From Photobacterium sp. DA100 (GTDB lineage: Bacteria > Pseudomonadota > Gammaproteobacteria > Enterobacterales > Vibrionaceae): 64,000 bases of DNA. Location: the NCBI RefSeq assembly GCF_029223585.1, contig NZ_CP119423.1, forward strand, positions 3,534,001-3,598,000. The letters are read 5' to 3'. The notes below the pieces were generated by a model. It made no database searches and was not told where the DNA came from. It was given only the letters and a program-made list of their open reading frames with translations. A program made the translations under genes and the position numbers. This document shows, in pieces, positions 45,240 through 50,722 of the stretch. Each line of letters opens with the position of its first letter. Within the stretch, counting starts at the first letter, position 1.

Positions 45240-46730
45240 TTATCTTGGATTTACTAATTGTCGAATATGAGGAAACAAATCACTGGCAAGCATACCACGC
45301 TCCCCCTCCGCTGCGCAGCGGTCGGCCGCAGTACTATGGATCCAAACCCCGCACCGCGCCGCCGCAACCAGAGACAACCCCTGTCCCAACAACGCCCCGA
45401 TGATACCAGATAGCACATCGCCCATCCCGCCTGTCGCCATTCCCGGATTCCCCGCAGGACACACCCAGCATCGGTTACCATCATCGACCAGCGTTCCCGC
45501 GCCTTTAAGTACAACGACACCACCGTACTGTTGTTGCAGCACCCTTGCCGCACGGAAGCGGTCTGCCTCCACCTCTTGCACTGAGCAAGCGAGCAGCCTG
45601 GCAGCCTCACCGGGGTGGGGAGTAATTATACGATTATTTTTATAGTCAGGTGAACGTGCTAATAAGTTCAATCCATCCGCGTCGACAACGTGGCTTTTTT
45701 GAGTCTTGGCCAGTACATTGTACAAAACTTGGCTCCAGCTCGACTGGCCCAGCCCTGGCCCCAATACCAGCACATCGGCCCATTGCAAACGGTGCTCTGC
45801 GACTGTTTGCCCCGAGGCTTGCCAGCCAAGGGCCATTATTTCAGGTCTTGCCGCCGCAATTGACAACACATTGTCAGGTTGCGTCAGGGCTGCCACTAAG
45901 CCGGCTCCGGTTCTTGCTGCGGCTTCCGCTGCCAGGCGGATCGCACCGCCCATGCCAAGATCGCCACCGGCCAGCAAGATCCGGCCGTGATCACCTTTGT
46001 GCGCATCGCGTTGGCGCGGCGGCAGAGAAAGGGCCACATCGGGGGCTTGGATCAGCCAGGCCGAAGGCGGCTCGAGCTGCTCAAAGGCATCGGCCACCTG
46101 CAATCCGGCAAACTGTATACGGCCAACATAGCCCGCGGCTTGGCCCGTCCACAGCCCCAGCTTGCTCCCGATAAAGGTCACGGTGGATTGTGCTTTCACC
46201 GCCTTGCCGAGCACCTTCCCAGTATCGGCACACAACCCTGAGGGAATGTCGATCGCAATGACTGGCAGCGCGATCCGATTGATCATAGCGATCAGCCGCT
46301 GCCCTTCCGGGCGTACCTCGCCCTTGAGCCCCGTGCCCAGCAAAGCATCAATGACCACCTCGATCGAGGCCGGGATCGCCTTTCCCGCTGGCAAGATCTG
46401 CCCTCCAGCCGCCAGCCAGGCATCCCGAGCCCGGGCGGCATCGCCATGGAGTTTTGCTCCATCCCCCTGCTGCCAGAGAGTCACCGGAAAACCGGCCTCA
46501 CGGGCTAGACGGGCAACGACATAGCCATCCCCGCCGTTATTTCCGCCACCGCAACACACCAAAACATGCTGCTGGCGGGTAAAACCTTGCTCAAGCACCT
46601 GAAATACCGCCGCACCGGCGCGCTCCATCAGCTGATACATGTCCAACGCTTGCTGGACGGCCACCAGCCGCTCTCCTCGACGCACCTGTTCTGCCCGGTA
46701 AAGTTTTCCAGACCATTTTTCCATACCCAT
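45240..46730 (-). CDS. nnr: Bifunctional NAD(P)HX epimerase / ADP-dependent dehydratase Nnr
   Basis: Repairs hydrated NAD(P)H. The 496-aa protein has the YjeF_N epimerase domain ([54 protein letters not shown]) and the ribokinase-like dehydratase ([51 protein letters not shown]). GGAGGGGTC precedes ATG 46730. It is the first gene of the nnr-tsaE-amiB-mutL-miaA-hfq superoperon and is divergent from queG, as in E. coli. Confidence 0.96.
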
Positions 46731-46857
46731 GACCCCTCCGTTGTAACGATGACCTCACTTCGCACTGGCAGCAAGCTAAGATCTTCCTGATGATCCTCTC
46801 AACATTTGCTGTGAGTGTGGTAAACTTCCGCCCCCAATCCAGCCCGGTACAGCAAGT

Positions 46858-47991
46858 ATGACTATCGACTATCGCGATCTGACCCAAAAAATCAAGCAAT
46901 GGGGCCAAGAACTTGGCTTCCAGCAGGTTGGGATCAGCGATGTTGATCTGCGCCAGCATGAAGCCCAGCTACAACGCTGGCTTGACGAAGGCTACCACGG
47001 CAACATGGACTGGATGGCTCGCCACGGTATGATGCGTGCGCGCCCAGCCGAGCTGCATCCTGGTACCATTCGGGTCATCAGTGCCAGAATGGACTACCTT
47101 CCGCCTGAGGCCAACTTTGCCCATAGCTTAAACCATCCCGAAACAGCCTATATCAGCCGCTATGCACTTGGCCGTGACTACCACAAGCTTATCCGCAATC
47201 GGCTCAAGCGCCTTGGACAACTCATCGAGCAAGAAGTGGGGCCATTGGGTTATCGCCCCTTCGTCGATTCGGCGCCGATCCTAGAGCGACCGCTCGCAGA
47301 GAAAGCCGGGCTGGGGTGGGCCGGTAAGCACTCCTTGCTACTCAACCAGCAGGCGGGATCATGGTTCTTTCTTGGCGAACTATTGATAGATCTACCTTTA
47401 CCTGTCGATAAACCCGAAGAGAATCAATGTGGTAAGTGTGTAGCCTGTATGACCAGCTGTCCGACACAAGCGATTGTCGAGGAAGGCGTGGTTGATGCAA
47501 GACGTTGTATTTCCTACTTGACCATTGAATTTGACGGTGTGATACCGGAAGAGTTCCGCGAAGCCATTGGTAACCGTGTTTACGGCTGTGATGATTGCCA
47601 ATTGGTTTGCCCATTCAACCGCTTTTCTGACATCACCCGAGAAGCCGACTATCATTGCCGCGACAGTTTACGCCTTCAACCATTGACGACCCTGTATGGC
47701 TGGACAGAAGAAGCCTTCTTAAAACATACCGAAGGCTCAGCAATTCGCCGTATCGGTCATATCCAGTGGCTTCGCAACCTCACGATTGCGATGGGGAATG
47801 CGCCATACAGCCCCGATATTATTGCGGCACTGGAATCAAGGGAGGGGGAAAGCGCTCTTCTGGATACGCACATTCAGTGGGCTAAAGGGAAGCAACTCGA
47901 GAAACGTTGCCAAGATGCTATCAGTGTGCTGCCTGCCAGTACCAAGCGGCTTATCCGCATTGTGAAAAAAGGCTTACCACGCGATGCCTAG
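46858..47991 (+). CDS. queG: Epoxyqueuosine reductase QueG
   Basis: Cobalamin- and 2x[4Fe-4S]-dependent enzyme for the last step of queuosine synthesis in tRNA wobble positions. The 377-aa protein has PFVDSAPILERPLAEKAGLG with WAGKHSLLLN (active-site region), cluster ligands in CGKCVACMTSCPTQAI and CDDCQLVCPFN, and a C-terminal HEAT-like part. Its 3' end is followed directly by the DnaA-box region, the same neighbour order as queG-datA-gly tRNAs in E. coli. Confidence 0.97.
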   Translation: MTIDYRDLTQKIKQWGQELGFQQVGISDVDLRQHEAQLQRWLDEGYHGNMDWMARHGMMRARPAELHPGTIRVISARMDYLPPEANFAHSLNHPETAYISRYALGRDYHKLIRNRLKRLGQLIEQEVGPLGYRPFVDSAPILERPLAEKAGLGWAGKHSLLLNQQAGSWFFLGELLIDLPLPVDKPEENQCGKCVACMTSCPTQAIVEEGVVDARRCISYLTIEFDGVIPEEFREAIGNRVYGCDDCQLVCPFNRFSDITREADYHCRDSLRLQPLTTLYGWTEEAFLKHTEGSAIRRIGHIQWLRNLTIAMGNAPYSPDIIAALESREGESALLDTHIQWAKGKQLEKRCQDAISVLPASTKRLIRIVKKGLPRDA

Positions 47992-48354
47992 CTGGGAAAA
48001 TAGCCCGGCTACCATATTGCAACCTTATCCACACAGAGTGAGAGTTCGATCAGGCTTCTGAACAAATGTGGAAAACATTTTCAATTTTGCTTCTTTATCT
48101 GCTATTTCCAATATTAAACACAGCCCAATATAGACGGCTCAAAAAAAGTTATCCAAACATCCACAGAGTGGATCAAGTTGTATATAAGCCTTGAGTAAAA
48201 ACAACCAAGACCATACAAAACAACACCTTATGCTGTGGATAGTTTCTTATCGATTATTGTTTTATTGAAGAAGAAAAAGATAAATACAGACTTGTTCACA
48301 CGGTATCGGCACACGTAATCAACCGACTTACCCACAAGATACTTTTGTGGATAA
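47951..48354. promoter_or_regulatory. DnaA-box cluster, candidate datA-like locus
   Basis: Nine-base DnaA boxes (consensus TTWTNCACA): perfect TTATCCACA at 48025-48033 (+) and 48346-48354 (-); TTTTCCACA at 48067-48075 (-) fits the relaxed consensus. One-mismatch boxes: TTATCCGCA 47951-47959 (+, within queG), TTATCCAAA 48149-48157 (+), CTATCCACA 48234-48242 (-), TTGTTCACA 48292-48300 (+), TTACCCACA 48328-48336 (+). IHF-like near-matches begin at 48171 (GATCAAGTTG) and 48318 (AATCAACCGA). The surrounding DNA is AT-rich and gene-free. In E. coli the DnaA-titrating, DnaA-ATP-hydrolysing datA locus lies at the equivalent place beside queG and glyVXY. The function here is inferred from position and boxes. 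Confidence 0.65.
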
Positions 48355-48774
48355 CTCTGTGCACGATCTCAGTATTTTCTATCCGCCACAGGCTTAAGCC
48401 CACGAACGACAAGGCATTCAGGCATAGTCTGGTCGGGATAAATTTAGACAGATACGATTCACAGCTCCCTGCTGGCAATTTACATTACCCGTATCAAACC
48501 ATTCAAAGAGCCTGTGTCGTCATTTGACACCAAACAGAGCATCTGGATATTGCGGGATAAAAATAAACAGCCATAAGGCTGTAGGGGCAATATCTACGAT
48601 GATGTTTTCGAAGCTGATCGCTTCATAATGGTTCCCGATAACACTATGGTTATGGAACATTGAGACAACACACAAGATTATCGAGAATCGATTAACCCAG
48701 GAATGTTGCAATTGAACTAATACTTCACAGTAGTAGCTTTGCCGTTCCCCTGCTCATGCAGCGGCAGCAGAAAT
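48355..48774. other. Gene-free stretch between the DnaA-box cluster and the tRNA array
   Basis: No credible gene: short frames here have no ribosome-binding site and odd codon use. It contains a terminator-like hairpin at 48556-48582. Confidence 0.5.
48556..48582 (-). terminator. Possible terminator of the tRNA array
   Basis: Minus strand ACAGCC-TTAT-GGCTGT followed by TTATTTTTA, about 250 bases beyond the last tRNA. The stem is short, and another site could be used. Confidence 0.45.
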
Positions 48775-48813
48775 TGGAGTGACGTGGCCGACTAGGTACA
48801 TGAGGTTCCTCGT
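48775..48813 (-). pseudogene. Possible decayed tRNA-Gly 3' fragment
   Basis: Just beyond the last tRNA, TGGAGTGAC (48775) and ACATGAGGTTCCTCGT (48798-48813) resemble the acceptor end and the T-arm of the adjacent tRNA-Gly genes (TGGAGCGAC, ACACGAGGTTCGAACTCGT) with a short insertion and a three-base loss. It may be a relic of an earlier array unit. Confidence 0.35.
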
Positions 48814-48835
48814 TGGAGCACATCTATCCTGAAAT

Positions 48836-48911
48836 TGGAGCGACACACGAGGTTCGAACTCGTGACCTCAACCTTGGCAAGGTTGCGCTCTACCAACTGA
48901 GCTAGTGTCGC
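48836..48911 (-). tRNA. tRNA-Gly (GCC)
   Basis: A 76-nt cloverleaf: acceptor GCGACAC/GTGTCGC, D-arm GCTC..GAGC, anticodon loop TTGCCAA (anticodon GCC), T-loop TTCGAAC, encoded CCA. It is the last gene of the array in transcription order. Confidence 0.97.
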
Positions 48912-48945
48912 ATGTCACTGTTAGGCACAATGAAAGCCATAAATC

Positions 48946-49021
48946 TGGAGCGACACACGAGGTTCGAACTCGTGACCTCAACCTTGGCAAGGTTGCGCTC
49001 TACCAACTGAGCTAGTGTCGC
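48946..49021 (-). tRNA. tRNA-Gly (GCC)
   Basis: Identical in sequence to the copy at 48836; separated from it by a 34-bp spacer of the TGTCACTGTTAGGCACAATG type. Confidence 0.97.
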
Positions 49022-49054
49022 ATGTCACTGTTAGGCACAATGAAAGCCATAATC

Positions 49055-49130
49055 TGGAGCGACACACGAGGTTCGAACTCGTGACCTCAACCTTGGCAAG
49101 GTTGCGCTCTACCAACTGAGCTAGTGTCGC
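49055..49130 (-). tRNA. tRNA-Gly (GCC)
   Basis: Identical Gly-GCC copy with encoded CCA; downstream of an fMet gene in transcription order with a 17-bp ATTTCTCAAAAGAGAAT spacer. Confidence 0.97.
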
Positions 49131-49147
49131 ATTTCTCAAAAGAGAAT

Positions 49148-49224
<77 letters not shown>

Positions 49225-49266
49225 TCCGTATTGTGTCACCGTTAAAGTACCGTGAGAACTGTAAAC

Positions 49267-49342
49267 TGGAGCGACACACGAGGTTCGAACTCGTGACCTC
49301 AACCTTGGCAAGGTTGCGCTCTACCAACTGAGCTAGTGTCGC
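49267..49342 (-). tRNA. tRNA-Gly (GCC)
   Basis: Identical Gly-GCC copy, part of a 212-bp Gly+fMet unit. Confidence 0.97.
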
Positions 49343-49359
49343 ATTTCTCAAAAGAGAAT

Positions 49360-49436
<77 letters not shown>

Positions 49437-49478
49437 TCCGTATTGTGTCACCGTTAAAGTACCGTGAGAACTATAAAC

Positions 49479-49554
49479 TGGAGCGACACACGAGGTTCGA
49501 ACTCGTGACCTCAACCTTGGCAAGGTTGCGCTCTACCAACTGAGCTAGTGTCGC
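49479..49554 (-). tRNA. tRNA-Gly (GCC)
   Basis: Identical Gly-GCC copy; the spacer just below it reads ACTATAAAC where most sister units have ACTGTAAAC. Confidence 0.97.
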
Positions 49555-49571
49555 ATTTCTCAAAAGAGAAT

Positions 49572-49648
<77 letters not shown>

Positions 49649-49690
49649 TCCGTATTGTGTCACCGTTAAAGTACCGTGAGAACTGTAAAC

Positions 49691-49766
49691 TGGAGCGACA
49701 CACGAGGTTCGAACTCGTGACCTCAACCTTGGCAAGGTTGCGCTCTACCAACTGAGCTAGTGTCGC
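49691..49766 (-). tRNA. tRNA-Gly (GCC)
   Basis: Identical Gly-GCC copy of the 212-bp series. Confidence 0.97.
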
Positions 49767-49783
49767 ATTTCTCAAAAGAGAAT

Positions 49784-49860
<77 letters not shown>

Positions 49861-49902
49861 TCCGTATTGTGTCACCGTTAAAGTACCGTGAGAACTGTAA
49901 AC

Positions 49903-49978
49903 TGGAGCGACACACGAGGTTCGAACTCGTGACCTCAACCTTGGCAAGGTTGCGCTCTACCAACTGAGCTAGTGTCGC
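49903..49978 (-). tRNA. tRNA-Gly (GCC)
   Basis: Identical Gly-GCC copy of the 212-bp series. Confidence 0.97.
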
Positions 49979-49995
49979 ATTTCTCAAAAGAGAAT

Positions 49996-50072
<77 letters not shown>

Positions 50073-50114
50073 TCCGTATTGTGTCACCGTTAAAGTACCG
50101 TGAGAACTATAAAC

Positions 50115-50190
50115 TGGAGCGACACACGAGGTTCGAACTCGTGACCTCAACCTTGGCAAGGTTGCGCTCTACCAACTGAGCTAGTGTCGC
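50115..50190 (-). tRNA. tRNA-Gly (GCC)
   Basis: Identical Gly-GCC copy at the junction: fMet-type spacer (ACTATAAAC variant) on the left and the Gly-Gly spacer on the right. Confidence 0.97.
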
Positions 50191-50223
50191 ATGTCACTGT
50201 TAGGCACAATGAAAGCCATAATC

Positions 50224-50299
50224 TGGAGCGACACACGAGGTTCGAACTCGTGACCTCAACCTTGGCAAGGTTGCGCTCTACCAACTGAGCTAGTGTCGC
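50224..50299 (-). tRNA. tRNA-Gly (GCC)
   Basis: Identical Gly-GCC copy in the upstream Gly-only block. Confidence 0.97.
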
Positions 50300-50333
50300 A
50301 TGTCACTGTTAGGCACAATGAAAGCCATAAATC

Positions 50334-50409
50334 TGGAGCGACACACGAGGTTCGAACTCGTGACCTCAACCTTGGCAAGGTTGCGCTCTACCAACTGAGC
50401 TAGTGTCGC
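50334..50409 (-). tRNA. tRNA-Gly (GCC)
   Basis: Identical Gly-GCC copy in the upstream Gly-only block; spacer of the longer AAATCT type on its left. Confidence 0.97.
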
Positions 50410-50442
50410 ATGTCACTGTTAGGCACAATGAAAGCCATAATC

Positions 50443-50518
50443 TGGAGCGACACACGAGGTTCGAACTCGTGACCTCAACCTTGGCAAGGTTGCGCTCTAC
50501 CAACTGAGCTAGTGTCGC
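50443..50518 (-). tRNA. tRNA-Gly (GCC)
   Basis: Identical Gly-GCC copy; spacer of the shorter AATCT type on its left. Confidence 0.97.
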
Positions 50519-50552
50519 ATGTCACTGTTAGGCACAATGAAAGCCATAAATC

Positions 50553-50628
50553 TGGAGCGACACACGAGGTTCGAACTCGTGACCTCAACCTTGGCAAGGT
50601 TGCGCTCTACCAACTGAGCTAGTGTCGC
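50553..50628 (-). tRNA. tRNA-Gly (GCC)
   Basis: Identical Gly-GCC copy, second gene of the transcript. Confidence 0.97.
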
Positions 50629-50645
50629 ATTTCTCAAAAGAGAAT

Positions 50646-50722
<77 letters not shown>

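Follow-up and report, generated by a model that had tools for sequence, protein, structure and literature searches.

A conserved DnaA-box element between queG and the glycine tRNA genes of Vibrionaceae is probably a datA orthologue of variant architecture

The window analysed here, a stretch of 64,000 nucleotides from Photobacterium sp. DA100, is part of a 3.87-Mb contig in a genome of 6.01 Mb and two contigs; among the best 80 of 118 loci retrieved with its QueG sequence, the nearest named relatives are Photobacterium. Within the window, queG on the plus strand and a tRNA-Gly gene (48836-48911) on the minus strand converge on a cluster of DnaA boxes (Table 1). E. coli inactivates DnaA, the protein that starts replication, at a site called datA. 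The order glyV-glyX-glyY, datA, queG of E. coli K-12, as given in excerpts of PMC10950094, shows the same relation, and our element likewise occupies the interval between queG and a convergent tRNA-Gly operon. A first-pass annotation of this DNA had placed the cluster at the position of E. coli datA, and that placement held.

Table 1. Features of the queG/tRNA-Gly interval, in window coordinates; locus counts refer to the 50 Vibrionaceae loci compared.
Feature	Position	Strand	Remarks
queG	46858..47991	+	Open reading frame left of the DnaA-box cluster, reading into it
Pair of boxes at the end of the queG coding sequence, TTATCCGCA (+) and TTTTTCACA (-)	47951..47969	+ and -	
Extra DnaA box, TTATCCACA	48025..48033	+	Lineage-specific: 4 of 7 Photobacterium loci including the window, 0 of 43 others
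DnaA box a, TTTTCCACA	48067..48075	-	Exact in 50 of 50 loci
DnaA box d, TTAAACACA	48114..48122	+	One mismatch; all 50 loci have a box with one mismatch at a+47 to a+49
Candidate IHF-binding site, AAACAACACCTTA	48218..48230	+	Core WCARNNNNTTR at 48220-48230; one mismatch to WATCAANNNNTTR
Box TTGTTCACA	48292..48300	+	Seen in Photobacterium only
Weak box e, TAATCAACC	48316..48324	+	Three mismatches in the window; 12 bp before box b
DnaA box b, TTACCCACA	48328..48336	+	Opposite in orientation to box c and 18-19 bp away from it in all 50 loci
DnaA box c, TTATCCACA	48346..48354	-	Perfect in 48 of 50 loci, one mismatch in 2
Weak box, TCGTGCACA	48358..48366	-	Tandem with box c, 12 bp on
Terminator-like hairpin	48567..48582	-	Between tRNA array and element, reading toward the element; weak evidence
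Array of 18 tRNA genes	48836..50722	-	12 Gly-GCC and 6 Met-CAT, tandem, reading toward the element

Two terminator-like hairpins were found where shuffled sequence led us to expect 1.2. Beside the last tRNA-Gly gene, positions 48780-48835 resemble by eye a degenerate 3' half of a tRNA gene. A search with Rfam at gathering scores over 46500-49500 yielded tRNAs only, and structured RNA was therefore rejected as an explanation of the element. A shared open reading frame was likewise set aside, as the indels seen by eye between loci argue against it. No plasmid-borne relative was returned by blastn of 48000-48420 against 72,556 plasmid records.

To count boxes we used the consensus TTWTNCACA over the 404 bp from 47951 to 48354. 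This interval contains 12 sites with at most one mismatch, four of them perfect and eight with a single mismatch, so that the cluster reported by the first-pass annotation stood while its tally of two perfect, one relaxed-consensus and five single-mismatch boxes proved too low. The perfect matches are TTATCCACA twice, at 48025 (+) and 48346 (-), TTTTCCACA at 48067 (-) and TTTTTCACA at 47961 (-). When the same 404 bp were dinucleotide-shuffled 3,000 times, perfect matches averaged 0.07 (maximum 2) and sites with at most one mismatch averaged 1.46 (maximum 7); neither 4 nor 12 was ever reached, which bears out the earlier expectation of a density above background. The stricter pattern TTATNCACA occurs twice, a count attained in one of the 3,000 shuffles. 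Without the queG part (47992-48354) there remain 3 perfect boxes and 10 with at most one mismatch, numbers that again no shuffle reached (0 of 3,000). Moreover, when 3,180 windows of 404 bp were taken at steps of 20 over the 64 kb, none outside starts 47500-48500 equalled any of the three counts, and the 64 kb as a whole are not enriched (6 TTWTNCACA matches against 4.2 expected; 22 of 100 shuffles reach 6). The DnaA-box cluster is thus real and rare. Across the 6.01-Mb genome TTATCCACA occurs 46 times, against 27 for its reversed control. In five places two copies are no more than 400 bp apart, one of these being the queG/tRNA-Gly locus. The other four, with adjacent genes named by reading translations, lie at oriC (mnmG-mioC), at rppH-mutH (the DARS2 position), at rpoH-glpE, and on chromosome 2 upstream of an ORF that resembles a response regulator. 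The rpoH-glpE site (L090:1413-1613; G000:C1:99912-100112) holds three perfect boxes, two TTATCCACA and one TTTTCCACA.

We then placed the element on the chromosome. The Photobacterium sp. DA100 match to oriC lies at 3,866,559-3,866,799, between mnmG and mioC, and is separated from box c by 284 kb, or 7.3% of the chromosome 1 contig; the element is in this sense oriC-proximal. The same arithmetic, which across genomes assumes that locus coordinates equal record coordinates, gave 10.1% for E. coli, about 10.2% for Vibrio pectenicida and about 9.8% for Vibrio sp. SCSIO 43135. At a distance from oriC that is thus maintained, the element is on the mnmG side of it in Photobacterium sp. DA100 and Vibrio sp. 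SCSIO 43135; in V. pectenicida its coordinates put it on the mioC side, where E. coli datA also lies.

Conservation was examined with queG as the anchor for locating orthologous loci. The best 80 of 118 loci in a scan with the window's QueG comprised 49 Vibrionaceae, 28 Shewanella and one each of Thalassotalea, Erwinia and Providencia, and the 49 Vibrionaceae loci together with the window form a set of 50, related to one another, in which counts are not independent events. Every member of this set carries the same core in the same order, namely box a (-), box d (+), the IHF core (in full or in part), box b (+) and box c (-), with most other positions variable; the conservation in relatives for which the first-pass annotation had called is therefore present, and we count this fixed architecture in favour of a datA reading. 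Across 42 Vibrio, Aliivibrio and MAG loci, positional conservation takes the form of separate blocks at the boxes and the IHF core. In these 42 loci a further conserved block, from about a+66 to a+101 (AATGA..AGGATCAAAAAA...TAA.GATC), was recognized by our scans as neither a DnaA box nor an IHF core. The 29 Shewanella and Thalassotalea loci contained no TTWTNCACA within 500 bp past queG and no tRNA-Gly in the examined flank.

The individual boxes differ in how widely they are kept. Box b is perfect (TTATCCACA) in 42 loci and carries one mismatch in the other 8. A best match to box e is found at b-12 in 43 of 50 loci, with one or two mismatches in 38 of 50, and the weak box beside c retains its ACA end throughout (50/50), with at most two mismatches in 22 loci and at least three in 28, the latter weighing against a datA reading. 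The conserved core spans 48067-48366, and the boxes at 47951, 47961 and 48025 are not family-wide; several of the boxes counted in the first-pass annotation, including two inside queG, turned out to be unconserved. At the position corresponding to 47961, 3 of the 7 Photobacterium loci have a strict box, and the 43 other loci have none. The two boxes in the queG coding end are probably a coding coincidence and, being unconserved, were rejected as parts of the element. The box at 48292 reads TTGTTCACA in 5 of the 7 Photobacterium loci and TTATTCACA in one, was not found in the seventh (L010), and is unaligned in the Vibrio rows inspected.

Between boxes a and c the window contains one full IHF core, that of the candidate site, so that by sequence a single candidate IHF-binding site separates the two arms. 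At the aligned place the core is full in 37 of the 50 loci, retains 6 of 7 core positions in 11 and 5 of 7 in 2, giving substance to the IHF-like sequences that the first-pass annotation had noted between boxes. The 13 loci lacking a full core, which include the four Aliivibrio loci, with 5 or 6 of 7 positions, were counted against a datA reading. As a control, we asked how often a full core falls in other 13-bp ranges from a+10 to about a+255; the average was 1.6 loci on the same strand and 0.4 on the opposite strand, and the best other range (17/50) takes in a+84, where some Vibrio have a second full core. The search for spacing was bounded (c at 255-291, IHF core at 145-157 and d at 38-56 bp from a; b at 15-22 bp from c), and within these bounds 48 of the 50 loci place the IHF core at 149-154 bp from a and at 122-127 bp from c, the exceptions being L025 and L046. 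The arms of the window measure 153 bp on the a side and 126 bp on the c side. The difference between the arms is 26-29 bp in all 37 full-core loci, and exactly 27 in 23 of them. L046, which contains runs of N, was kept in these spacing and control counts and omitted from the block analysis and from a wider strict-letter scan of 49 rows, in which L036 and L047 had no box c, a different box was picked for c in L012, and the queG box stood in for a in L013 and L014.

A further 17 QueG loci from diverse Vibrionaceae genomes were inspected. An a-c pair at 269-279 bp was present in 13 (in L169 via a second a-type box), 9 of which have the full IHF core in place; the remaining four (L168, L170, L173 and L176) are without the core geometry and count against a datA reading. 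In L173 and L168, which belong to two other Vibrionaceae genera, many boxes follow queG, but the conserved spacing and a full IHF core are both absent. Beyond the family, we searched 197 genomes of the order, obtained a QueG match in 135 and compared 40 regions from 19 other families. A two-box module was found in 6 of these 40 queG regions, from three families (f5, 1/1; f11, 1/1; f19, 4/4), with box 3 and box 2 separated by 161-165 bp. One further locus, from f3, has a single strict box, and two, from f13 and f25, have a tRNA-Gly nearby and no boxes.

Comparison with E. coli datA revealed a shared plan on a different scale. Both elements lie in an oriC-proximal queG/tRNA-Gly interval, and both present a box 2 that has an ACAGAG flank and a weak neighbour at 12 bp, then an IHF site, then a box 3-type box of the same orientation on the far side. 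Box c can be equated with E. coli datA box 2, and its flank ACAGAGTTATCCACA is as in E. coli; past the IHF site, box a runs in the direction of box 2 and, to judge by order and orientation, is the equivalent of box 3. In E. coli, TTGTAAACA occupies the place of our weak box, 12 bp from its TTATCCACA, and is probably the published box 7, given its order, orientation and low affinity; the high-affinity box 2 with a tandem low-affinity box is thus matched here by c and TCGTGCACA. For E. coli, Erwinia, Providencia and a pair of f19 genomes, the distance from the IHF core is 94-95 bp to box 3 and 67-68 bp to box 2. In another pair of f19 genomes the sequence at offset 94 agrees with 6 of 7 core positions, and f5 and f11 show no good IHF core at the E. 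coli-type place. The arm difference in the five E. coli-type loci is 27-28 bp, close to the roughly 27 bp of Vibrionaceae.

The arms themselves, in contrast, are 95 and 67 bp in E. coli and 153 and 126 bp here, and each is about 57 bp longer in Vibrionaceae. E. coli-like arms were sought and rejected: in the 50 loci no full core occurs at a distance of 94-95 bp to a or of 67-68 bp to c. Since the E. coli spacing is not found, we class the element as a variant of datA and not as an E. coli-type datA; the order of boxes and IHF site, which the first-pass annotation had proposed to compare, agrees between the two, whereas the spacing differs and inverted boxes are added. These inverted boxes, b and d, are extra in Vibrionaceae, and for box d we noticed by eye no counterpart in E. 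coli datA. Box 3 is TTATTCACA in E. coli, whereas box a is TTTTCCACA in Vibrionaceae. Two published properties of E. coli datA were counted against our reading, namely that spacing matters (excerpts of PMC5742627 and PMC4585315) and that all essential boxes face one direction (an excerpt of PMC5742627), unlike boxes b and d here. One GATC lies between boxes 3 and 2 in E. coli, whereas Vibrio and Aliivibrio have a GATC pair, at a+75 and a+97 (L024, L035, L045 and others), each exact in 40 of 43 loci and 22 bp apart. A third GATC is often found near a+200 in these loci; the window has only one, at a+104. The GATC pair is a possible SeqA target.

We also examined the proteins on which an E. coli-like mechanism would depend. 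DnaA residues 157-467 (domains III-IV) are identical to those of E. coli at 297 of 311 positions. Arg281, Arg285, Leu290 and Arg334, named for datA function in an excerpt of PMC5742627, are unchanged, as are the domain-IV residues checked. The genome encodes four HU/IHF-family proteins, two of which match IhfA and IhfB at 84% and 85% identity. The proteins for the E. coli mechanism are thus present.

Taken with the box density, the gene neighbourhood, the fixed architecture, the place of the IHF core, the arm difference and the distance to oriC, these conserved proteins support the view that the queG/tRNA-Gly element is most likely the Vibrionaceae orthologue of datA in a variant architecture. 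A passive titration site near oriC, whose boxes would only soak up DnaA with no role for IHF or hydrolysis, would also place many boxes in a short, early-replicated stretch and would suit the further boxes added in Photobacterium. Titration needs no fixed spacing, yet the a-d, b-c and IHF distances stay within a few base pairs in nearly all 50 loci, and the IHF core recurs far above the control ranges; we regard this alternative as unlikely. The element could instead roadblock or terminate transcription of the tRNA array or queG through DnaA and IHF, playing no part in initiation. Both transcription units read into it, and an excerpt of PMC10950094 credits DnaA box 2 and IHF of E. coli with attenuating read-through from glyV-X-Y; a roadblock, however, needs no boxes on both sides of an IHF site, and a terminator-like hairpin, itself weak, already lies upstream, so that a purely transcriptional role seems extremely improbable.

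The own oriC of Photobacterium sp. DA100, also a DnaA-box cluster, is distinct from the element, lying 284 kb away. A closer resemblance is to DARS, sites that reload DnaA with ATP, since b (+), c (-) and the weak box (-) reproduce the triad topology of a DARS core. When seven loci were scanned, an inverted (+), (-), (-) triad with its 12-bp tandem step was seen in E. coli DARS1 and DARS2, in the DARS2 of this genome and in the element, and was absent from E. coli datA and from either oriC. The first gap, however, is 14 bp in all three DARS, against 18 bp in the window (18 and 12 bp in place of 14 and 12) and 18-19 bp in all 50 Vibrionaceae loci, and membership of the DARS class was rejected because of this difference. 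Moreover, the gene neighbourhoods of DARS1 and DARS2 are different ones, the element occupies the position of datA, and the genome already has DARS2-type boxes at rppH-mutH; DARS2 has been described in V. cholerae (excerpts of PMC8682772 and PMC6090056). A DARS function is accordingly very improbable.

Under the datA reading, a mechanism can be proposed on the model of E. coli datA as outlined in excerpts of PMC5742627, PMC10950094 and PMC4585315. IHF would bend the DNA sharply at 48218-48230 and fold the pair formed by c and the weak box toward box a, and ATP-DnaA bound on both arms would assemble into one oligomer and hydrolyse its ATP, after which inactive ADP-DnaA would leave the element. 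Hydrolysis of DnaA-ATP at the Vibrionaceae element is thus predicted by analogy. Because it is 284 kb from oriC, the element would be duplicated soon after initiation, damping re-initiation. The fold is expected to align the same parts of both arms as in E. coli, with the added arm DNA presumably carrying the inverted boxes, b (with weak e) and d, and read-through from the tRNA genes could dislodge IHF. A bolder version would make this datA double as a two-way DnaA nucleotide switch, hydrolysing DnaA-ATP with IHF and releasing ADP without it; the arms would have lengthened in step with the register of about 27 bp kept, inverted e-b facing c and the weak box would act as a DARS-like triad, and in Vibrio the two Dam sites (GATC), spaced by 22 bp, could couple the switch to the site's own replication. 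We hold this extension to be decidedly unlikely.

If the element works as datA, IHF-dependent inactivation of DnaA would be common to the two-chromosome Vibrionaceae and to E. coli and its kin, which would suggest an origin before the two lineages split. With both arms longer and their difference kept, the family offers a natural spacing experiment, whose pattern predicts that alignment of the folded arms matters more than arm length. In the literature searched we found no description of datA in Vibrionaceae, a search in which datA and the word "data" were indistinguishable and to which two primary datA papers (2013, 2017) may add a note of conservation; excerpts of PMC3937223 and PMC6090056 draw a comparison between E. 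coli datA and a chromosome-2 locus that titrates RctB. The datA interpretation of the first-pass annotation is, on the sequence comparisons assembled here, supported.

Finally, we surveyed the flank of box c, ACARASTTATCCACA, across the family. It occurs in 292 of 296 Vibrionaceae genomes, compared with about 11 for the reversed control, and this counts in favour of datA, although the same pattern also matches a polA site, so that the tally is no proof of a datA site in each genome. Of the four genomes lacking it, two measure 1.0-1.1 Mb and gave no QueG match; in the remaining two, boxes linked to queG keep the usual spacing and the flank has diverged. Among 30 loci listed for the pattern, 10 encode QueG, 12 encode PolA and 8 neither, from which it follows that a site near polA recurs in Vibrionaceae. 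In Photobacterium sp. DA100 this second cluster (L129:1440-1735; G000:C1:3746239-3746534) lies upstream of polA, facing an elbB-like gene, and has the components of the queG-linked element in a different arrangement: TGTGGATAAGTTTGTTGG, the IHF-like sequence ACAAAGACTTA, GATC sites and TGTGGAAAA.
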